12,285 nt of DNA from JACPSX01 sp035288405 [NCBI: bacterium]. Its GTDB lineage: Bacteria; JACPSX01. This document shows positions 1 through 12,285 of this stretch, piece by piece (the stretch's first letter is position 1; every line of letters begins with the position of its first letter). The stretch covers positions 1-12,285 of the forward strand of contig DATEAK010000268.1 in the NCBI GenBank assembly GCA_035288405.1, written 5' to 3'. Under the pieces are notes generated by a model, which did not search any database, was not told the DNA's origin, and saw only the letters and a list, made by a program, of their open reading frames with translations. Position numbers and translations under genes: made by a program.

Positions 1-118
1 GAAGTTTTTCCAGCTTCCCGCTGCAATCCGGACAGCTCTGCAATGGAGGATCTGAGACCCTCTGGATTATTTCCAGCTTCTTCGCGCATTGGCTGCATTT
101 GTACTCGTAAATGGGCAT
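1..118 (-). CDS. FmdB-family zinc-ribbon protein (5' part, runs off left edge)
   Basis: Only the first 39 codons lie in the window. The protein opens MPIYEYKCSQC, the standard start of the FmdB/CxxC zinc-ribbon family, and has two knuckles, C8-x2-C11 and C29-x2-C32, which would bind one zinc ion. Family members are small (often 60 to 110 residues) proteins described as putative regulators; their molecular role is poorly known. The ATG at 118 is preceded by GAGGAG with a 9-base spacer, which fixes the start. Upstream is a sigma-70 promoter with a CIRCE operator over the expected transcription start, so the gene should be repressed by HrcA. The usual CIRCE targets (groES-groEL, hrcA-grpE-dnaK) would be expected further left, outside the window; that is inference. 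Family assignment is secure, function is not. Confidence 0.88.
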   Translation of the reverse strand, partial: MPIYEYKCSQCAKKLEIIQRVSDPPLQSCPDCSGKLEKL

Positions 119-138
119 TACACTGGTCTCCTCGGTGC

Positions 139-165
139 CTAGCACTCTCCACATGGGAGTGCTAA
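139..165 (-). promoter_or_regulatory. CIRCE operator (HrcA binding site)
   Basis: On the plus strand the site reads CTAGCACTC, nine bases, GAGTGCTAA. The CIRCE consensus is TTAGCACTC-N9-GAGTGCTAA, so 17 of 18 arm positions match and the spacer length is exact. It lies just downstream of the -10 box at 167-172 and covers the predicted transcription start of the zinc-ribbon gene, the usual arrangement for repression by HrcA. I saw no second copy in the window. Confidence 0.95.
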
Positions 166-166
166 A

Positions 167-194
167 ATTATAGAATGTTTTCCTTGAGAGTCAA
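167..194 (-). promoter_or_regulatory. Sigma-70 promoter of the CIRCE-controlled unit
   Basis: Reading the minus strand, TTGACT (194-189) and TATAAT (172-167) are separated by 16 bases, a near-consensus housekeeping promoter. The expected start of transcription is near 160, inside the CIRCE element, leaving a leader of about 42 bases before the ATG at 118. The -35 box overlaps the stop codon (193-191) of the preceding gene. Confidence 0.85.
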
Positions 195-760
195 GGTTTT
201 TTGCAAACTCGGGGGATTCTTCCACCCGCCTGCTCATTGGAGGTCCCACGGAGGGCTTTGTAGGCTCCCAGCACAAGATCGAGACCCGGCACGTCAACAT
301 CCCTAAGACATTCAAAGGTCTCCTGATGTACCCGCCTCTCCTCTAATTGACGTTCGAACCCGAAAATGTCAAATTCCTGGAACGAACGGCTAAAGCGGAC
401 CACATGGATGATCTCATGGGTCAGGACATAGAGCATCAAAGTCTCCAAGCGCAGGACCTGCTTCCCACGCCGGATCCTATCCAACACTTTATGGTCCTGA
501 ACACAAACCCGGTAAAACTCGAGCGGCCAGGGACTCCCGTGGCCTGACGGGGAAAAACACTCGTACTTGGCCACCTGGGCCATCGCCTGATCGGTGATTT
601 CCTCTTGGCTGAGAAATGCCAGAGTCCTGAGGTCGTAATGGATGGATCCCCATTCTTCTCTAGAGAGTTGAAAGCGGTGGGACACCAGATCCTCTGTGTT
701 CACCAAGCATTGCTCGACAATCGCAAGCTGCCTGTCACTAAAGTAACGATCCTTTGTCAT
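191..760 (-). CDS. Conserved-looking hypothetical protein with HEXXH motif (putative metalloprotein)
   Basis: A 189-residue protein that I cannot name. Its most telling feature is H115-E-I-I-H119 in a hydrophobic helix-like stretch (LMLYVLTHEIIHVVRF), the HEXXH pattern of zinc metalloproteases. About 20 to 30 residues on there are acidic residues and a histidine (E140, E141, H145, E147) that could supply a third ligand. No signal peptide or membrane segment is visible, so it would be cytosolic. I chose the ATG at 760 because a GAG lies 7 bases upstream and the protein then begins MTKDRYFSDRQ; in-frame starts also exist at 778 (ATG) and 790 (GTG). The gene is co-oriented with the zinc-ribbon gene 72 bases downstream and may read through into it. 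A small HEXXH hydrolase or a degenerate, non-catalytic fold are both possible. Coding status is likely; function is unknown. Confidence 0.72.
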   Translation of the reverse strand: MTKDRYFSDRQLAIVEQCLVNTEDLVSHRFQLSREEWGSIHYDLRTLAFLSQEEITDQAMAQVAKYECFSPSGHGSPWPLEFYRVCVQDHKVLDRIRRGKQVLRLETLMLYVLTHEIIHVVRFSRSFQEFDIFGFERQLEERRVHQETFECLRDVDVPGLDLVLGAYKALRGTSNEQAGGRIPRVCKKP

Positions 761-811
761 GAGAGATCTCTTGTCCATTACAGCCGCCACGTTTTAACCA
801 TTTCACATCTA

Positions 812-1771: not shown

Positions 1772-4270
1772 ATGTATAAATACTTCCGCTTTCTTACCGA
1801 GCAGGTCATTGAGGCAATCAACATCGCCTCCTCCGAGATGATGAATCTCCAGCAGGCGGAACTGACCCCAGAGTTTCTTCTGATCGGCCTTCTAGAGCAG
1901 GACGATTCGCTTGTCCTAAAAATTCTTAGAGAAATGGGCTTTGAGCCTCAAGCGATGAAGGATCAGATTCTCGATCGCATCTACGCCGCTCAGGAAAATC
2001 GCCCTAGACATCCTCGGACCGGACCCATTCAGATTTACCTATCCCGGGAGACAGAGCAGGTCCTGCAAATCGCCAAACGCGAGGCTGACTCGCTGAAGGA
2101 CAAGTTTGTCGGAGTGGGGGCTCTCTTTCTAGTCCTCCTGGACGTTTCCTCCGGCTTTGCCTCCGCTCTGCTCCGGGATCTGGGAATCCATTACGAAAAA
2201 GCCAGAAACGCTCTCCTCAGATTACGCGCCGGCCGTCAGGTGGAAGACCGGGAATCCGAAATGCGCTACGACGTGCTGAGAAAATACACCACGAACCTCA
2301 CGGACCTGGCTCGCCGTGGGGAGCTCGACCCGGTCGTCGGTCGGGAGACAGAAATCAACCGGGTGATTCAAATTCTTTCCCGTCGCAAGAAAAACAACCC
2401 GGTTCTGATTGGGGAGCCTGGCGTAGGCAAGACGGTCATTGTCGAAGGATTGGCACAGAGGATCGTGGATGCAGACGTCCCCGAGAACCTTCTCAATAAA
2501 CAAGTCCTGCAACTGGAGATGTCCGAGGTCATCGCGGGCGCAAAATTTCGGGGAGAATTTGAAGAGCGGCTCAAAGCCCTCAAGGATGAAGTGATCTCAG
2601 CAGCAGGGCAGGTCATCTTGTTCATCGACGAGCTTCACACGGTCGTGGGGGCAGGGGCTGCTTCTGGAGGGCTGGATGCCTCCAACATGTTGAAGCCGGC
2701 TCTGGCTCGGGGGCAGCTCCAATGTATCGGTGCAACTACCCTGGAAGAGTACAAGAAGCACGTTGAGGAGGACAAGGCCCTGGAGCGCCGATTTCAAACC
2801 GTCCTGATCAAAGAACCGACGGTTGAGGAAACTTATAGAGTTTTGCAGGGGTTGAAGTCCAAGTATGAGAGCCATCACCAAGTACATTTTACAGAACAAG
2901 CCCTGCTCCAGGCAGCCAGGCTCGCGGAGCGCTATATTGCAGACCGGTTCTTGCCTGACAAGGCCATTGACCTCGTGGATGAAGCAGGTTCCAAGAAACA
3001 TCTGGACCTAAACTACATCCCCTCCGACATTCGCAAGCTGCAGAAAGAGAGAGACCAAGTCCTCCAGTCCCAACGCAAGGCCTATGAGTCGGAAGACTAT
3101 GAAGCCGCAGCCCGCTACCAGCAGCAAATCCTTCTTATGGACCAGGAGCTAAAGGCCAAGCGTACGAGCTGGCGCAAGACCATTCAGCCCGAGGAAGCCG
3201 CCGTGGACGAGGAAGACATTGCACGGGTTGTCGCGCATTGGACGGGCATCCCGGTAACCCGGATGCTCGAGTCCGAGGCAGAAAAACTCACGCGCATGGA
3301 GGAAAACCTGCACAAGCGCATCATTGGTCAGGACAACGCCGTCAAAGCCGTGAGCAATGCCATCCGGCGCAACCGGGCGGGCTTGAAGGAGCAGAATCGG
3401 CCCATCGGATCCTTCCTCTTTCTGGGTCCCACGGGAGTGGGCAAGACGGAGCTGGCCAAAGCCCTTACCGAATTTCTCTTTGACGACGAAAACAAACTCA
3501 TCCGTCTGGACATGTCCGAATTCATGGAGCGTCACACAGGCTCCAAATTGATCGGGTCTCCTCCCGGCTATGTGGGCTACGGTGAAGGAGGACAACTTAC
3601 CGAAAAAGTTCGCCGCAATCCTTATGCGGTGGTCCTCCTCGACGAGCTTGAAAAAGCCCACCCGGACATCTTCAACATCTTGCTGCAAATTCTCGACGAC
3701 GGACGGCTTACCGACTCTCAGGGGCGTACGGTAAGCTTCAAGAACACCATCATCATCGGAACTTCCAATATCGGCAGTGAGCTCATCACCCGGGAAGCAC
3801 CGGAAATCGGCTTCGTAAGGGATTTCACCCAACAACGCTACGAAGATATAAAGAAGATGGTCCTCCACGAAGTGAAAAAGGTGTTTAAGCCCGAGTTCTT
3901 AAATCGCATCGACGACCTGATCGTCTTCCATCAGTTGACAAAAGCGCACATCCGTCAGATCGTTGACCTCCTCCTGACCACTCTTGCCAAACGTCTCCAG
4001 GAGCGCGAGCTCAACATCGATGTGCACGATGATGTCCGCGAAAAGCTCGCCGAAGAGGGCTACGACCCCTTTTATGGCGCCAGACCCTTGCGGCGTGCCG
4101 TGGAAAACCTCATTGAGAATCCGCTGGCTCAGAAGGTCATCACCGGAGAGTTTTCCTCGGGGGACCGGATACAAATTGCCCTGAATACCGGGGAGATTGT
4201 TTTTACAAAAACTACAGGGCAGGCCATTCCTCAAACCATTTCATCCTCATGGAACCGGTCTATATCTTAG
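1772..4270 (+). CDS. clpC: ClpC-type AAA+ unfoldase (Clp protease ATP-binding subunit)
   Basis: An 832-residue Hsp100 ATPase that unfolds proteins, normally for the ClpP peptidase. The N-terminal domain has two Clp-N repeats (about 4-70 and 82-152). The first AAA+ module has Walker A GEPGVGKT at 214-221 and Walker B ILFIDE at 282-287. A short coiled-coil middle domain (about 415-470) with a UVR-like stretch follows, much shorter than that of ClpB. The second module has GPTGVGKT at 552-559, VVLLDE at 620-625 and sensor-2 GARPLRR at 769-775. An IGF tripeptide at 679-681 matches the loop that docks into ClpP. These features point to ClpC rather than ClpB, and ClpA lacks this middle domain. GGAGGT at 1754-1759 precedes the ATG by 12 bases, slightly far. 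No clpP, ctsR, mcsA or mcsB is in the window. The 3' end overlaps the arginase gene by 22 bases. Confidence 0.93.
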
Positions 4271-5255: not shown

Positions 5256-6719
5256 CTAGCCTTTGAAGTTCATCGCCACAAAAAGGTGGGACCCCCTGCG
5301 GTTAATCAGGATCAAGACAGTTCCATCAGACGCGCTCTCCCTCACTGCACGCCAGAAATCCTGGACTGTAGGGACTTCTCGCTCGTCAACTTCCTGAACC
5401 AAGTCTCCCTGGCGAATTCCCGCTTGATCGGCCGGTCCCCCAGGCTCCACCCGGGTAACGATCACTCCTCGGGATTGGGAAAGGCCCAAGCCCCGTGCCA
5501 GTTCCGGGGTAAGATCCTGGACGGTCATCCCGTATTGTTGCTGGGCAGGAACCGAGCGGGCAGCCACGGACTCTTCTTTGAGTTCAGCGACGGTCACCCG
5601 TAACTCCAGATCCTTTCCTTTGCGAAGAACCTTTACCGGAACTTCTTTGCCAATTGACGTATTCGCCACTAGCCGAGGAAGCTCCATGATATCTTCCACC
5701 GGCTTCCCATCAAAAGAAACAATAAGATCACCGCGCTGTATCCCCGCTTTCTTTGCCGGTCCCCCTTCGGTGACCTCCGATACCAGGGCGCCTTGCGGCC
5801 GGGGCAAGCCCAGGGACTTAGCCAGGTCCGGTGTCACGGCCTGAATCTGAACCCCAATCCATCCGCGCGTAACCGCCCCCTTCTGCCAGAGCTGCAAGAG
5901 GACCGGTTTCGCCAGGTTTATCGGGGTGGCAAAACCCAGACCCTGCCCCCCGGCAATAATCGCCGTGTTGATACCGATAATTTCCCCTCGCATGTTGATG
6001 AGGGGACCTCCACTGTTGCCGGGGTTAATCGATGCGTCCGTCTGGACGAAGTCGTCGTAAGGACCCGCCCCGATAATTCTCCCTTTGGCGCTTACGATTC
6101 CCGTGGTCACCGTTTGCCCGAGGCCAAAAGGGTTGCCGATCGCCATAACCCATTCCCCGACTCGTAACTTGTCCGAATCTCCCAGGCGGGCGAAGGGCAG
6201 GGGTTGACGAGGAGAAATCTTGATGAGAGCCAGATCGGTCTTCGGATCGCGCCCCACGATTTTGGCGTCGTACTCCTGCTTATCCGAGAGGATGACCTTG
6301 ATTTCGGAAGCACCCTCGACGACGTGATTGTTCGTGGCGATAAATCCATCTTTGTTGATGATGAATCCGGATCCCAAGCTTTGGCGTTTAAATTCCTGCT
6401 GGGGAACGTCTCCAAAGTAGCGGCGAAACAAATCTTCAAACGGGTTACTCTGAAAGGGTCCCTCCCCGGAAGGTCCGCGCTGCGGTCCTTGCCCTTTCAC
6501 TACCTGGGTGGTGCTGATATTAACCACGGAGGGACTAAGCTTCTCCGCCAGGTCCACGAAAGGTGGTAGAGCGACCTGCGGAGATACTCCCGTGCTACCC
6601 TCGGTCCACAAGCTCTGCCCCCATCCCGTTACGGATCCCGAAAGGATCAAGAGAAGGGTCAACGCAAGACACAGCCCCACTGGATTCCGACGAGACTGGA
6701 AACCAATCGAAATCCTCAT
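5256..6719 (-). CDS. Do/DegP-DegQ-type periplasmic serine endoprotease
   Basis: A 487-residue HtrA-family protease that degrades or refolds damaged proteins in the periplasm. The N-terminus has a basic segment (R10, R11), a hydrophobic core of about 13-30 and a likely signal-peptidase site near residues 32-36. The trypsin-like domain shows the full triad: H132 in TNNHVV, D162 in TDLALI, and S236 in GNSGGP. Two PDZ domains follow, about 285-380 and 395-480, the first opening with GWIGVQIQ. Two PDZ domains place it with DegP/DegQ (Do) rather than single-PDZ DegS. The long linker rich in G, P, Q and F (about 75-112) resembles the LA loop that controls oligomer assembly. The ATG at 6719 has AGGAG 8 bases upstream. 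The gene lies 133 bases downstream of lon on the same strand and could be co-transcribed. I found no clear promoter of its own. Confidence 0.93.
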   Translation of the reverse strand: MRISIGFQSRRNPVGLCLALTLLLILSGSVTGWGQSLWTEGSTGVSPQVALPPFVDLAEKLSPSVVNISTTQVVKGQGPQRGPSGEGPFQSNPFEDLFRRYFGDVPQQEFKRQSLGSGFIINKDGFIATNNHVVEGASEIKVILSDKQEYDAKIVGRDPKTDLALIKISPRQPLPFARLGDSDKLRVGEWVMAIGNPFGLGQTVTTGIVSAKGRIIGAGPYDDFVQTDASINPGNSGGPLINMRGEIIGINTAIIAGGQGLGFATPINLAKPVLLQLWQKGAVTRGWIGVQIQAVTPDLAKSLGLPRPQGALVSEVTEGGPAKKAGIQRGDLIVSFDGKPVEDIMELPRLVANTSIGKEVPVKVLRKGKDLELRVTVAELKEESVAARSVPAQQQYGMTVQDLTPELARGLGLSQSRGVIVTRVEPGGPADQAGIRQGDLVQEVDEREVPTVQDFWRAVRESASDGTVLILINRRGSHLFVAMNFKG

Positions 6720-6852: not shown

Positions 6853-9306
6853 TCAGACTCCGATTTTGCGCCGTCTACGAGATCCTTTCTCCTCCTCCTC
6901 AGAACTCGACTCTGAAGCAACTTTCACCCGCTTCGCAACCTGGCCATCGGAAAATACGACGTCAATAACCTCCTCCATTTTGCTGATAAAGCGAAATTCC
7001 AAGCCGGCCTTCATGTGTTCGGGAATCTCGGGCATATCTTTTTCGTTCTTCCTCGGCAGGACGATCGTCGTAATGCCTGCCCGCTTCGCCGCCAGGACTT
7101 TTTCTTTGATCCCTCCAACGGGCAACACAAGGCCTCTTAGCGTAATTTCTCCCGTCATGGCAACGTCTCCCCGGACAGCCCGGCTGGTCAACAAGGAGAC
7201 CAGCGCCACGAACATGGTGATTCCCGCCGAAGGTCCGTCCTTCGGGATAGCTCCGGACGGCACGTGAATATGAATATCACTCTTATCGTAGAAATTAGAC
7301 GGGATCCCCAAGGCTTTCGCCCTGGAGCGCACGTAGCTCAGGGCTGCCTGGGCCGATTCTTTCATCACGTCTCCAAGCTGGCCGGTCAACGCGAGGCTTT
7401 TTTGTCCGGGCATCCTGGTGGCTTCTACAAAGAGAATGTCCCCTCCCGTAGAAGTCCAGGCCAGTCCTGTGGCAACACCGGGAACGGAGGTTCGCTCGGC
7501 CGCTTCCGAGAAAAACTTAATGGGTCCCAGGTAGCGGGAAATATCTTCGCCTGTCACCTGCACAGTGCCTTGTTTGCCATCGGCCACTTCCTTGGCAATC
7601 GCACGGCAAATCCCAGCAATCTCTCTTTCCAGATTTCGTACTCCAGCTTCTCGGGTATAAGAACGAATGAGTGTTTGCAATGCATCTTCCGCGAAGATGA
7701 CCTGATCTTCCTTCAGACCATTTTCTAAAACTTGTTTTGGAATCAGGAACTGCTTGGCAATCGCCACCTTGTCTTCCTCGGTGTACCCCGGGAGTTCGAG
7801 CACTTCCATCCTATCCTTGAGAGCAGGAGGGATCGGCTCCAGGATGTTGGCCGTGGAGATAAACATCACCCTGGAGAGATCGAAAGGGACATCCAGATAA
7901 TGATCGGAGAAAGAATAATTCTGTTCGGGATCGAGAACTTCCAAGAGGGCTGAGGACGGATCCCCCCGAAAGTCGATGCCAATCTTATCCACCTCATCAA
8001 GCATGAAAATGGGGTTGTTCGAACCTGCTTTTTTCACCCCTTGGATGACCCGTCCGGGCAGCGCTCCAACATAAGTCCGACGGTGACCCCGAATTTCCGC
8101 TTCATCTCGAACTCCGCCCAAAGAAATGCGCACAAATCGGCGTCCAATGGCGCGCGCGATCGAGCGCCCGAGGGAAGTCTTTCCTACACCCGGAGGTCCC
8201 ACGAAGCACAATATGGGGCCTTTCAGATTGTGCCTTAACTTACCTACCGCGAGGTATTCGAGTATCCGTTTCTTAACTTTTTCGAGGTTAAAGTGATCTT
8301 CATCGAGAATCTGTTTGGCCGCAGCCAGATCGAGGTTATCTTCCGTGCTGATCGACCAAGGCAGATCCACAAGCCAATCCAGGTAAGTGCGCGAGACTGT
8401 GTACTCGGCTGCCGCGGGCGACATGCGCGATAGGCGATCAAGCTCTTTTTCTGCGGCCTCGGCAGCTTCTTTGGGCATATTCGCCTTGGTAATTTTTTCG
8501 CGGAGTTCTTTCATCTCCTGGGTGCGCTCGTCTTCTTCCCCGAGTTCTTTCTGAATCGCTTTCATCTGCTCCCGCAGATAGTACTCCCGTTGGGTTTTCC
8601 CCATGCCTTCCTGGATTTGAGACTGGATTTTATCCTTGAGCTCCAAGACCTCCTTTTCTCGATTCGCCAGGATGTTCACTTTCTCCAAGCGCTCTTTGAC
8701 GTCGAGGATCTCCAAAATCTCCTGTTTCACGGAAGCGGGCAGATTAAGGTTCGAGGTAACAAAATTGGCCAGGTGAGAGGGATCCTCCAACTGCATGGTC
8801 AAGTGGGAGATATCTGCGGACAAATAGGGCGCCAAGTCGACTAATTTCTTGAAAAGAGCCTTGAGGTTAATGGTTAGGGCCTCAACTTCAACTCCCTCTG
8901 CGATCCGATCCTTGAGTTCCTCAACTCGAACGTGGATATAGGGATCGGATCCCAAGAATTCCGTGACCCCAAACTTCCCTACCCCTTGAACAATGACGTT
9001 CTTCTTGCCGTCTTGAGTTTTGAAGACCTTTAAGATCTGAGCAAACGTCCCAACCCGGTACAAATCGTCCGGGGTCGGATCCTCGATTTCTGAGCTTTTT
9101 TGAGTAATGACACCGATAATCTCTTCTCGCGCTACAGCGTCTTCCACTAGGCGAACAGACTTCTCCCGGCCTACGACCAGAGGTAAGATCAATCCAGGAA
9201 ACAGCACCGTGCCTCGTAGCGGCAAGATCGAAATTTCTGACGGGGCGGCTACTTTCCCTCCCTCTCCCTCCTCGGGATTTCCTTCTGGTTTTTCCAGTAA
9301 ATTCAT
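6853..9306 (-). CDS. lon: ATP-dependent Lon protease (bacterial LonA type)
   Basis: An 817-residue cytosolic AAA+ protease that degrades misfolded and regulatory proteins. The N-terminal LON substrate-binding domain (about 25-215, starting [13 protein letters not shown]) is followed by a coiled-coil linker. The AAA+ module has Walker A GPPGVGKT at 370-377 and Walker B IFMLDEVD at 433-440. The protease domain carries the Ser-Lys dyad, S693 in PKDGPSAG and K736 in [10 protein letters not shown], 43 residues apart as in E. coli Lon (S679/K722). The protein is slightly longer than E. coli Lon because of a charged C-terminal tail (about 797-817) with a serine/glutamate run followed by [10 protein letters not shown]. 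The ATG at 9306 has GAGG 8 bases upstream. It follows the bactofilin gene by 97 bases and appears to have its own promoter. No CIRCE site is present here, so heat control, if any, is by another route. Confidence 0.97.
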
Positions 9307-9403: not shown

Positions 9404-9865
9404 TCAATTCTTTTGACTGGCTTGTCGAGCAATATCGCGTGAGAATTCTGGGTTAAATAATCGCGAAGGGATTTTCGCCTCTGGCCCTTGCTCCTGCTCT
9501 TCGTCCAACGAGATCATCCGGCAATGCCCCTCATAAACAGCGCCTTCCTCGATAACCAGAATCGGAGTGCTGATATCTCCCACAAGTACGCTCCCTTTCT
9601 GGATTTCAATGCGCTGGTGGGCACGTACATTCCCCTGGATTTTCCCACATCCGATTAAGGTCCCCACGTTGATTTCGGCTTGAACCTCTGCACTTTCTCC
9701 CACAATGAATGTATCCGGCGACAGGATTTCTCCCTCGAATTTTCCGTCCACCCGCACAGTCCCCTGAAAGGAAAGAATACCGTGAAATTGGGTCCCCTCC
9801 CCTAAAAACGCGCGTAACACCTCCCGGTTCGTGTTTTCTTTTTTCCCACTCGACTTCAACACCAC
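9404..9865 (-). CDS. Bactofilin family cytoskeletal protein
   Basis: A 153-residue bactofilin. Members self-assemble without nucleotide into filaments built from a right-handed beta-helix and act as scaffolds for cell shape, polarity or chromosome organisation. The core spans about 20-118 and shows the short repeating pattern of hydrophobic and glycine residues that forms the helix (for example GKFEGEILSPDTFIVGESA, then GKIQGNVRAHQRIEI). It is flanked by a short polar N-terminus and an acidic, then basic, C-terminal tail that is probably disordered. The GTG start at 9865 is fixed by a strong AGGAGGTG six bases upstream. That ribosome site overlaps the parB stop codon, and the genes are 4 bases apart, so expression is probably coupled to parB. 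This supports a role with the segregation machinery, as shown for bactofilins of Myxococcus, but that is inference here. Confidence 0.92.
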   Translation of the reverse strand: MVLKSSGKKENTNREVLRAFLGEGTQFHGILSFQGTVRVDGKFEGEILSPDTFIVGESAEVQAEINVGTLIGCGKIQGNVRAHQRIEIQKGSVLVGDISTPILVIEEGAVYEGHCRMISLDEEQEQGPEAKIPSRLFNPEFSRDIARQASQKN

Positions 9866-9869
9866 GGGT

Positions 9870-10733
9870 TCACCTCCTATCGGCTCGTTTCGCTTTGGTT
9901 AAAATGTCGGCAAGTGCCTGCAAGTCGTCAAGTGAATAATAAGAGATGACAAGAGCCCCTCTCTCGGCCGTACCGTGAATCTCCACCCGTGTCACTAAAG
10001 TCCGGCTTAACTGCTCTGCCAAGGCCTGCAAATGGACATCCCTACGGCTCTGCGGTTGTTTCTTTGGCAGCTTTCGTGCCCGAATTACGGCCTCTTCGGT
10101 TTGTCGCACCGAAAGACCTTGCCGAAGAATCTTACCGCAAAGCTCCTTTTGTTCTTCTACCGTCTTAAGCCCTAACAGGGCGCGGGCATGTCCCATAGTC
10201 AGGCGTCCTGACACTACTTCTGCTTGAATTTCCGTAGGAAGCTTTAACAATCTAAGCTGGTTGGCAACGGTGCTGCGATCTTTTCCCACCCGACGGGAAA
10301 CTTCCTCTTGAGAGAGACTAAATTCAGCGGAAAGCCTTTCATAGGCCCGCGCCTCTTCGATCGGGTTTAGGTCCTCTCTCTGAATGTTCTCAATGAGAGC
10401 AACCTCCAGACGCTCTGCGCCGCTAACTTCTCGCACCAGCCCCGGCACCGTAGAGAGTCCGGCTAACCGGGCGGCACGCCAGCGGCGTTCTCCGGCAATG
10501 AGCTCATACGCCCCCTCAGACACTTTTTGAACGATAACCGGCTGCAACACCCCCCTGGTTCGAATCGATTCCACAAGCCCCTCCAGCCCCTGCCGGTCGT
10601 CGGAAGATAGGTGCCGGGGCTGATCCGGATTCGGCACGATCGCATCCAGGGGGATTTCTTGAATTCCCCGCCCTTCCTCAATTCGAGTTGAGATGAGTGC
10701 CTCCAGTCCTCTACCGAGTGCCTTTCTTTGCAT
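9870..10733 (-). CDS. parB: Chromosome-partitioning protein ParB
   Basis: A 287-residue ParB, the parS-binding CTPase that loads as a sliding clamp around parS and stimulates ParA. The first conserved block is LDAIVPNPDQPR at 29-40. The CTP-binding arginine motif GERRWRA is at 81-87, and ENIQREDLNP at 115-124 is the third block. A helix-turn-helix for parS recognition lies around 141-163, and a C-terminal dimerisation domain fills the last 50 or so residues. The ATG at 10733 gives the usual N-terminus MQRKALGRGLEAL. The frame stays open for 66 more codons upstream, but these only run antisense-free through parA coding sequence in another frame and carry no ParB features, so the longer start is rejected. 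The gene overlaps the end of parA by 23 bases, which implies co-translation. Confidence 0.95.
   Translation of the reverse strand: MQRKALGRGLEALISTRIEEGRGIQEIPLDAIVPNPDQPRHLSSDDRQGLEGLVESIRTRGVLQPVIVQKVSEGAYELIAGERRWRAARLAGLSTVPGLVREVSGAERLEVALIENIQREDLNPIEEARAYERLSAEFSLSQEEVSRRVGKDRSTVANQLRLLKLPTEIQAEVVSGRLTMGHARALLGLKTVEEQKELCGKILRQGLSVRQTEEAVIRARKLPKKQPQSRRDVHLQALAEQLSRTLVTRVEIHGTAERGALVISYYSLDDLQALADILTKAKRADRR
9871..9878 (-). promoter_or_regulatory. Strong Shine-Dalgarno of the bactofilin gene
   Basis: Reading the minus strand, AGGAGGTG lies just before a GTG start at 9865. It covers two bases of the parB stop codon (9872-9870), so ribosomes ending parB can restart here. It decides the bactofilin start. 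Confidence 0.8.
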
Positions 10734-11487
10734 GGTCCAGGAGTTCCTCTGCAAGAGTTCGATAAGCCTGTGCCCCCCGAGAACGTGGATCGTACAACAA
10801 AATGGGGAGACCATGACTCGGGGCTTCGCTGAGCCGGACGCTACGCGGGATAATCGTGTGAAAAACGGTCCCCTCAAAGTGGCGGCGAACCTCATCAGCG
10901 ACTTGCTGAGAGAGCAGCGTTCGTGCATCAAACATCGTCAACAAAACTCCTTCAACGGAAAGGTCCGGGTTTAAGCTCTGCTTGATACGGCGAACAGTCC
11001 GCAACAACTGGGTCAACCCTTCCAAAGCGAAGAACTCACACTGCAAGGGAATAAGAACGCTGTCGGCCGCTGTCAGAGCGTTCAAAGTCAGCAGTCCCAA
11101 GGACGGAGGAGAATCAATTAGAATGAATTCAAACCTGTCGCGCACACCGTTTAGCGCCCGACAGAGACGTTTTTCCCGTTCTTCCAATGAGACGAGTTCA
11201 ATCTCGGCACCAATCAAGTCTACGGTAGCTGGGAACAAATATAGATTCGCGAGCTGGGTAGGAATAATGGCCTTGTCAGCCGGCTCCAAACCGAGAAGGC
11301 ACTGATAAACCGTTATAATTGAATTGGTTTTATCGATTCCCACACCGCTGCTGGCGTTTCCCTGTGGGTCAAGATCAATGAGCAGCGTGGAGTGCCCCCC
11401 AAGGGCTAGGGCTGCACCTAAATTAATAGCGGTGGTGGTTTTTCCCACCCCTCCCTTCTGGTTCGCGACTGCAATAACGCGCCCCAC
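10711..11487 (-). CDS. parA: Chromosome-partitioning ATPase ParA (Soj family)
   Basis: A 258-residue ParA ATPase, which binds DNA non-specifically as an ATP dimer and forms the gradient that moves ParB-parS complexes. The deviant Walker A motif KGGVGKTT begins at 11, with signature lysine K11 and K16. The A' motif DLDPQGNAS is at 38-46 and the Walker B strand FILIDSPPSLG at 121-131. There is no N-terminal DNA-binding extension, so it is the small chromosomal type. Two GTG starts are possible: 11499 has no spacing from any ribosome site, while 11487 has GGTGGAG ending 6 bases upstream and gives MGRVIAVANQKGG, the normal family start, so I chose the latter. parB overlaps its 3' end; parS and rsmG lie upstream. 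Confidence 0.95.
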   Translation of the reverse strand: MGRVIAVANQKGGVGKTTTAINLGAALALGGHSTLLIDLDPQGNASSGVGIDKTNSIITVYQCLLGLEPADKAIIPTQLANLYLFPATVDLIGAEIELVSLEEREKRLCRALNGVRDRFEFILIDSPPSLGLLTLNALTAADSVLIPLQCEFFALEGLTQLLRTVRRIKQSLNPDLSVEGVLLTMFDARTLLSQQVADEVRRHFEGTVFHTIIPRSVRLSEAPSHGLPILLYDPRSRGAQAYRTLAEELLDHAKKGTR

Positions 11488-11493
11488 GCTAAA

Positions 11494-11500
11494 CTCCACC
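11494..11500 (-). promoter_or_regulatory. Ribosome binding site that decides the parA start
   Basis: Reading the minus strand, GGTGGAG ends 6 bases before the GTG at 11487. An earlier in-frame GTG at 11499 lies inside this site and has no usable ribosome site of its own. Confidence 0.6.
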
Positions 11501-11528
11501 TTTAGAAACCATTGACAAATCAGCCTGA

Positions 11529-11558
11529 ATTCTACTCCCCCTCAGGAATGAAAGGCAA
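11529..11558 (-). promoter_or_regulatory. Candidate sigma-70 promoter for parA-parB-bactofilin
   Basis: Reading the minus strand, TTGCCT (11558-11553) and TAGAAT (11534-11529) are separated by 18 bases. Transcription would begin near 11522, about 35 bases before parA. parS lies just upstream of the -35 box, so ParB bound there could affect it. The match is moderate. Confidence 0.45.
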
Positions 11559-11570
11559 GAGCTTTCCCCA

Positions 11571-11586
11571 TGTTTCACGTGGAACA
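11571..11586 (-). other. parS: parS centromere site (ParB loading site)
   Basis: The minus strand reads TGTTCCACGTGAAACA, an exact match to the widely conserved chromosomal parS consensus TGTTNCACGTGAAACA. It lies 3 bases beyond the rsmG stop codon and upstream of parA, a very common position for parS. It is the only copy I saw in the window. Confidence 0.96.
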
Positions 11587-11589
11587 CTT

Positions 11590-12255
11590 TTAGGGTCTCC
11601 GGCGCTGAATCGTCACAAACCGAATTCGAGTCTCCCAGGGGGTGGAGATCTCTTGCACTCCCTTCAGCTCTCCGCCAAACCGCGCACAGATACCAGCTGC
11701 TGGAACGATTTCTTCTTCCAGACCCTCCCCTTTCTGTGCAATGAGAGACCCTCCGGGTTTTATCAGCGGCAGACAGTCCTGAACCAATCGAGAAAGCTTT
11801 AGGGCGGCCCGGGAAACGACCACACTGAATTCTTCCTGAAAAGAGTTCTCTTGGGCAAGCTCGCGCAGGTCCGAACAAACGATTTGCAAGCCAGATAACC
11901 CAAGCAATGCAGCAACATACTTGAGGAAACTGGCCTTTCGTCGCGAGCGCTCAAGCAAAGTCCACTGGCCTTCGGGATGTAAGATTTTTAGCGGGATCCC
12001 TGGGATGCCAGCGCCGCTTCCAACATCTAGACATCTTCCAGCGGAGCCCTCTTCAGGCAATGGCCATAAGGCAGAGCAGGCAAAAAGGTACCGGACAATC
12101 TCTGCTTCGTCTTGTAGAGCTGTCAAATTCACAGTCCGATTCCAGCGCCGAATCTCCCGCAAATAGGCCAGAAAGCGGTCTTTTTGCGGTTCCTGCAATG
12201 GGACCCCTATCCGTTCAAACTCAAAAGTGAGGAAATCTTTAATGTCTGACTTCAT
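11590..12255 (-). CDS. rsmG: 16S rRNA (guanine-N7)-methyltransferase RsmG
   Basis: A 221-residue SAM-dependent enzyme that makes m7G at position 527 (E. coli numbering) of 16S rRNA; its loss gives low-level streptomycin resistance in several bacteria. The N-terminal helical part contains WNRTVNLTA at 38-46, a family signature. The SAM-binding motif LDVGSGAGIPGIPL is at 76-89, followed by LLERSRRKASFL at 100-111, and the later strand motif GGSLIAQKG at 168-176. Length is normal. The ATG at 12255 has only a weak ribosome site, as is common when the gene follows mnmG closely. The 30 bases to its right, to the window edge, probably hold the end of such a neighbour but are too short to identify. 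The stop codon lies 3 bases before parS. Confidence 0.96.
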   Translation of the reverse strand: MKSDIKDFLTFEFERIGVPLQEPQKDRFLAYLREIRRWNRTVNLTALQDEAEIVRYLFACSALWPLPEEGSAGRCLDVGSGAGIPGIPLKILHPEGQWTLLERSRRKASFLKYVAALLGLSGLQIVCSDLRELAQENSFQEEFSVVVSRAALKLSRLVQDCLPLIKPGGSLIAQKGEGLEEEIVPAAGICARFGGELKGVQEISTPWETRIRFVTIQRRRP

Positions 12256-12285
12256 ATCCGGATGTGGCGCTACGATGTTTGTCCG

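Follow-up and report, generated by a model that had tools for sequence, protein, structure and literature searches.

The closest described system is that of Ruc (Rv0991c), the founding redox-regulated chaperone of its family, and the account given here follows the accessible portions of the report on it (Becker et al. 2020, PMC7448276). The ruc gene is repressed by HrcA and its expression rises at 45 degrees. Reduced Ruc binds one zinc through its cysteines and is inactive. The oxidised protein prevents aggregation and promotes refolding by DnaKJE, and its tail is required (PMC7448276). Mutants were made at C8/C11 and C29/C32, and the cysteine-to-serine variants are free of zinc and active without oxidation (PMC7448276). 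Moreover, rv0991c-rv0990c is given among the HrcA operons in the part available of PMC8557902, and the excerpt of a review places ruc in the HrcA-repressed Hsp60 regulon (PMC13091356). The pairing of CIRCE/HrcA with a zinc ribbon is already known from this one bacterium. In our literature search we found no work joining HrcA with the name FmdB, or CIRCE/HrcA with a zinc ribbon; the link is published under Ruc and Rv0991c. Selenocysteine forms of FmdB are on record (PMC2398784 and PMC13188914, both as partial texts), also implying thiol chemistry. A preliminary description of the DNA studied here had called its FmdB-type protein poorly understood. This cannot be upheld, since Ruc, with the same N-terminal domain, the same cysteines and HrcA control, has been characterised (PMC7448276, available part).

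The window, that is the whole stretch of 12,285 bases analysed, carries a promoter, a CIRCE and a zinc-ribbon gene, all on the minus strand and in an order running from position 194 downward. The features are as follows:

191-790, minus strand: upstream ORF of 199 aa with an HEIIH motif, matched by no Pfam or NCBIfam model at E 0.001
189-194, minus strand: -35 hexamer TTGACT, in overlap with the upstream ORF's stop codon
167-172, minus strand: -10 hexamer TATAAT, with a spacer of 16 bases to the -35 hexamer
139-165, minus strand: CIRCE operator, predicted HrcA site, TTAGCACTC-N9-GAGTGCTAG, agreeing with the consensus at 17 of 18 positions
128-133, minus strand: Shine-Dalgarno-like GAGGAG, 9 bases 5' of the ATG, as read from the sequence
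1-118, minus strand: 5' part of an fmdB/ruc-type zinc-ribbon gene, 39 codons, by PF09723, TIGR02605 and alignment

The near-consensus sigma-70 promoter of the preliminary description, given there without a strand, reads on the minus strand and scores 11 of 12. It is the best of five promoter-like sites in positions 1-2000, as against a mean of 1.3 in shuffles of that region. The CIRCE had been described as almost perfect and is so: an inverted repeat with 9-base arms around nine bases, differing from the consensus (TTAGCACTC-N9-GAGTGCTAA) in a single outer base. It is the sole match at up to 3 mismatches in all 12,285 bases, and none of 200 dinucleotide-preserving shuffles contained any CIRCE at this threshold. 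The operator lies at the promoter, one base past the -10 hexamer, so that transcription is expected to start within CIRCE; the position over the start site, likewise claimed before, is predicted from the -10 hexamer. The ATG of the zinc-ribbon gene is found at 118-116, with CIRCE 20 bases 5' of it. We make no claim that the 199-aa upstream ORF belongs to the CIRCE unit; used as a query in 23 genomes of the class of G025 it returned nothing, and an empty return of this kind proves nothing. On the plus strand, positions 182-196, which overlap the -35 hexamer of the minus-strand promoter, form a hairpin of six pairs without mismatch, and six T come next. We know of no plus-strand gene that terminates at this hairpin.

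The 39 codons score well above the cut-off with PF09723 Zn_ribbon_8 (58.8 bits, cut-off 34.4, E 5.1e-16) and with TIGR02605, the model named 'FmdB family zinc ribbon protein' (57.7 bits, cut-off 31.3, E 9.2e-16), which confirms the assignment of an FmdB-type zinc-ribbon gene directly after CIRCE. The protein is visible to residue 39, at which the left edge of the window, position 1, truncates the gene, and its translation up to the edge is MPIYEYKCSQCAKKLEIIQRVSDPPLQSCPDCSGKLEKL. Both this translation and its alignment to relatives display CxxC-N17-CxxC with Cys 8, 11, 29 and 32. Among the matches listed, L089 comes nearest as a zinc ribbon linked to CIRCE, sharing 22 of the 39 residues. In a classical chaperone operon groES, groEL, hrcA or dnaK comes first after CIRCE; here the fmdB-type gene does. 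What the window holds is a true gene of the Ruc kind with CIRCE at its head.

Further genes in the window touch protein quality control. Positions 1772-4270 (plus strand) encode a two-domain Clp ATPase, whose best NCBIfam model is ClpB, below its cut-off; Pfam and NCBIfam identify a Do/HtrA protease at 5256-6719 and Lon at 6853-9306, both on the minus strand. All three quality-control genes lie close to where fmdB begins, and no CIRCE at up to 3 mismatches was found at any of them. Positions 9404-12285 (minus strand) hold bactofilin and parA (Pfam) in a row with ORFs that look parB-like and rsmG-like by eye. A bactofilin/parA/parB/rsmG-type order is often seen near replication origins.

We estimate at roughly three in four the probability that the left end of the window carries the promoter region and the first codons of a gene under HrcA control that encodes a Ruc-type chaperone of the FmdB family. 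Under normal conditions, HrcA bound to CIRCE over the transcription start would block the sigma-70 promoter. In HrcA systems elsewhere, misfolded proteins occupy GroEL and HrcA loses activity. Under such a load of misfolded protein, repression would be lifted here and the zinc-ribbon gene transcribed. Its product would hold one zinc via Cys8, 11, 29 and 32. Upon oxidation the zinc would be released, unfolded proteins would be bound via a disordered C-terminal tail, and DnaK would refold them. For the window itself, we infer HrcA binding, heat induction, the tail and the activity. A role in proteostasis, perhaps through sensing of zinc or redox state or by helping a chaperone, had been suggested beforehand; it is supported by what has been shown for Ruc (PMC7448276, in the sections available). 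Together with the recurrence of CIRCE described below, the Ruc data support the proteostasis reading of FmdB genes where CIRCE is present.

An exact-pattern scan of one genome per species (84,980 species), for a CIRCE core followed within 9-51 nt by an MPxxYE[YF] start, yielded the CIRCE-fmdB arrangement in at least 117 stretches, which are not a random sample. By record label, the matches listed comprise 104 of Actinomycetota type, 7 Chloroflexi/Dehalococcoidia, 2 Myxococcales, and one each from Ignavibacteriales, Armatimonadota, 'Proteobacteria' (L089) and 'Acidobacteriota' (L031). L031 is discounted as evidence for Acidobacteriota, as it groups with an Acidimicrobiia-type row in the tree. 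Its FmdB differs little from that of L045, which is recorded under Actinomycetes, and it falls among rows of that type; the bin is probably mislabelled or mixed. The pair pattern is strict, with exact GCACTC arms and GG before ATGCC, so that the species-wide scan and both phylum samples (395 and 396 genomes) undercount.

In Actinomycetota, the phylum of G014 (the Ferrithrix genome, with locus L015), the pairing occurs in 12 of 396 genomes including the seed. In the phylum of G001 it was found directly in 1 of 395, the seed alone. The reversed-pattern control gave 0 in every genome of both samples. The phylum of G001 is the nearest reachable one; matches to the window's Lon, run within this phylum in samples of 99 and 395 genomes, reach at most 68% at full length and 69% in one partial match. 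The host therefore probably belongs in or near the phylum of G001, without a close relative in the samples, and is probably not an actinomycete. The survey for CIRCE followed by an FmdB-type gene, as proposed in the preliminary description, has therefore found the pairing in several phyla, and its generality in the nearest phylum had to be rejected. Within the class of G014, 24 of 40 genomes have a family member over the cut-off, and in 7 of these 24, the seed included, a CIRCE with no more than 1 mismatch lies immediately 5' of it (paired by eye). Among 41 Chloroflexota genomes, likewise paired by eye, the seed alone has the pairing. Since the pairing is rare in these samples, most Zn_ribbon_8 genes there are without CIRCE. 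The CIRCE-fmdB pairing is real, recurrent and patchy.

A promoter-like -35/-10 pair scoring at least 6 is present in the 54 bases at CIRCE in 81% of 115 CIRCE-fmdB loci, compared with 23% of base-shuffled copies of the same regions, and in 20 of the 28 loci with a score of at least 8 it ends at the CIRCE edge. Some genomes in the class of G014 have double operators, in which the starts of two CIRCE sites are separated by 24-36 bases (G456:C25, G448:C59, G436:C11, G439:C466, G431:C6, G425:C29 and G453:C1).

Where read, CIRCE in the phylum of G001 heads other genes. Allowing up to 2 mismatches, we found 61 sites spread over 36 of 59 genomes and read 30 of them by eye, one per genome. Downstream were groES (19), hrcA (6) and rpoH (5); fmdB followed directly at none of the 30. 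Pfam confirmed these calls in five cases, namely one of each kind and two from the rpoH-fmdB and groES-fmdB operons described next, and the RpoH model of NCBIfam accepts both rpoH examples. These targets agree with the published delta-proteobacterial regulon (PMC545781, as far as its available part goes). Family members do occur inside CIRCE operons in at least 2 of the 59 genomes, a count taken from PF09723 members among the matches listed, so that pairings with weak members may be missed. L173 (G025) reads CIRCE-rpoH-fmdB, with 9 bases from rpoH to a TTG and 15 to an ATG of fmdB, and its FmdB protein has a Ruc-like tail. L174 (G044) reads CIRCE-groES-fmdB with a gap of 11 bases between the two genes. 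Its FmdB protein has 67 aa, lacks the KGxGF motif and carries two additional cysteines in the later part of the chain; it therefore need not be a Ruc and may be another type of family member.

The CIRCE-linked proteins are largely uniform. Cysteines at 8, 11, 29 and 32 only, counted over the first 50 residues, are found in 95 of the 117 listed, and five more have these or slightly shifted positions plus one extra cysteine. Six have cysteines at 8, 28 and 31, and four at 8, 11 and 32 or 33; in these ten a His occupies position 12 or 29, next to where a cysteine is lacking, and zinc may still be bound. Of the 117, 112 retain the motif KGxG[FW]. The other five are three open-ended or shifted reads, including L115, and L044 and L104, which read SGSGF. 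Residues past 58 consist to a median of 100% of S/G/K/E/D/T/P/A/Q/N/R in the 114 complete proteins, with the lowest hydrophilic share (64%) in the frameshifted L115. In an AlphaFold2 model of L089, pLDDT is about 46-58 in the tail from residue 51, as against 92-94 for residues 1-40.

Seven of the 117 listed proteins (L001, L008, L010, L042, L064, L080 and L085) have no cysteine anywhere in the chain. All are of Solirubrobacterales type and keep CIRCE and the tail. They form one group with support 100/97 in a tree of 113 of the 117 listed rows and 64 columns, in which many forks are unresolved and the bootstrap is not fully settled; L115, which looks frameshifted, and the open-ended L018, L057 and L101 are left out of it. 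In the genome of L042 (G015, Paraconexibacter antarcticus), the cysteine-free protein is the only family member over the cut-off in a six-frame search (34.5 against 34.4 bits). In a whole-protein scan, L042 (32.6 bits) and L001 (32.4) fall just under the same cut-off of 34.4. AlphaFold2 predicts for the cysteine-less form a 40-residue strand-bearing domain with pLDDT 95-96 and a low-confidence tail, from an alignment that held four-cysteine homologues and may carry the fold over. A structure search with this model gave no significant match, and a sequence search for solved relatives returned weak matches only, two of them named zinc fingers or zinc-finger proteins. The part of PMC7448276 at hand makes no mention of cysteine-less forms.

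The assignment of CIRCE to fmdB has to be weighed against the idea that the true target is a chaperone gene further downstream, with the zinc-ribbon gene only a short leader. What comes downstream of the window's gene lies beyond position 1, a point past which no relative was found to extend, and in the Chloroflexota-type locus L073 dnaJ follows fmdB immediately. By crude ORF calling, the next long ORF is on the same strand in 35 of 83 assessable loci (34 of the 117 listed were not assessable). In the remaining 48 of 83 it is convergent, and CIRCE at those loci would serve fmdB alone. Neighbours were identified by Pfam scans of 21 chosen ORFs from 13 of the 117 listed loci. Here dtd (D-Tyr-tRNA deacylase), not a chaperone gene, comes after fmdB in four of the seven Chloroflexota-type loci (L016, L026, L030 and L107), while L084, too short, and L048, where no ORF right after fmdB was scanned, gave no neighbour. 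The dtd product is a proofreading enzyme. As the neighbour contexts vary while CIRCE-fmdB stays, fmdB itself is the likelier target rather than a passenger, and we regard a mere leader function as unlikely. This bears also on the preliminary description of the gene as leading a heat-shock unit: it is the first gene after CIRCE, but a multi-gene unit cannot be claimed, as the window ends within this gene and so does not show whether it leads a unit, and most assessable relatives have a convergent neighbour.

The FmdB protein could also be a transcription regulator, acting in a second tier under HrcA. The family is annotated as 'putative regulatory protein, FmdB family' (PMC2398784 and PMC11022373, in the parts available), and in Foldseek the cysteine-less model hits mycobacterial RNA polymerase complexes first, matching chains of these, with RbpA lower and a best E of 0.17. 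Such a role would also fit the ability of zinc ribbons to bind RNA polymerase or nucleic acid. On the other hand, a cysteine-less clade with a low-complexity tail fits a holdase at least as well, and the family member studied in PMC7448276, as its available part reports, is a chaperone. We consider a regulator quite improbable. Still less credit is due to the notion that the palindrome is a chance match or a site for some other regulator: the shuffled sequences contained no CIRCE, the promoter geometry fits CIRCE control, the arrangement recurs in at least 117 stretches, and the reversed pattern gave 0 in every genome of the two phylum samples. An HrcA-regulated gene for a Ruc-type chaperone remains our preferred reading.

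The recurrence across phyla and the cysteine-less clade are the modest novelty of this work. The family is tied to heat-shock control beyond the species in which this was first shown, while many annotations still say 'FmdB, putative regulatory protein'. We tentatively suggest, with rather more doubt than confidence, that CIRCE-ruc forms a branch of the HrcA regulon which recurs across several phyla, and in which a Solirubrobacterales-type clade may have lost all four zinc cysteines, kept CIRCE, KGxGF, the tail and probably the fold, and so become a constitutive holdase. If true, this clade would be without a redox switch, its holdase governed by heat-shock transcription alone, and would be a natural counterpart of the Ruc cysteine-to-serine variants (PMC7448276, accessible sections). 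It would offer a ready test of the purpose of the zinc-cysteine switch, as nature has removed the switch and kept the rest.

Among known systems, the delta-proteobacterial HrcA/CIRCE regulon has the same operator, TTAGCACTC-N9-GAGTGCTAA, but Table 8 in the available part of PMC545781 gives groESL, hrcA-grpE-dnaK-dnaJ and rpoH as its members, without fmdB. Hsp33 is alike in principle, a four-cysteine zinc switch that becomes a holdase when oxidised, whereas the accessible text of PMC7448276, from which this account is taken, states no sequence similarity to Ruc beyond the four zinc cysteines. Ruc itself differs in that a SigH site overlaps its HrcA site (PMC7448276, same portions), while the promoter of the window is of sigma-70 type. 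Shared features are the N-terminal CxxC-N17-CxxC with cysteines at the identical positions 8, 11, 29 and 32, CIRCE in the window and HrcA control in Ruc (according to the sections available), and the hydrophilic tail that the CIRCE-linked relatives of the window gene share with Ruc.
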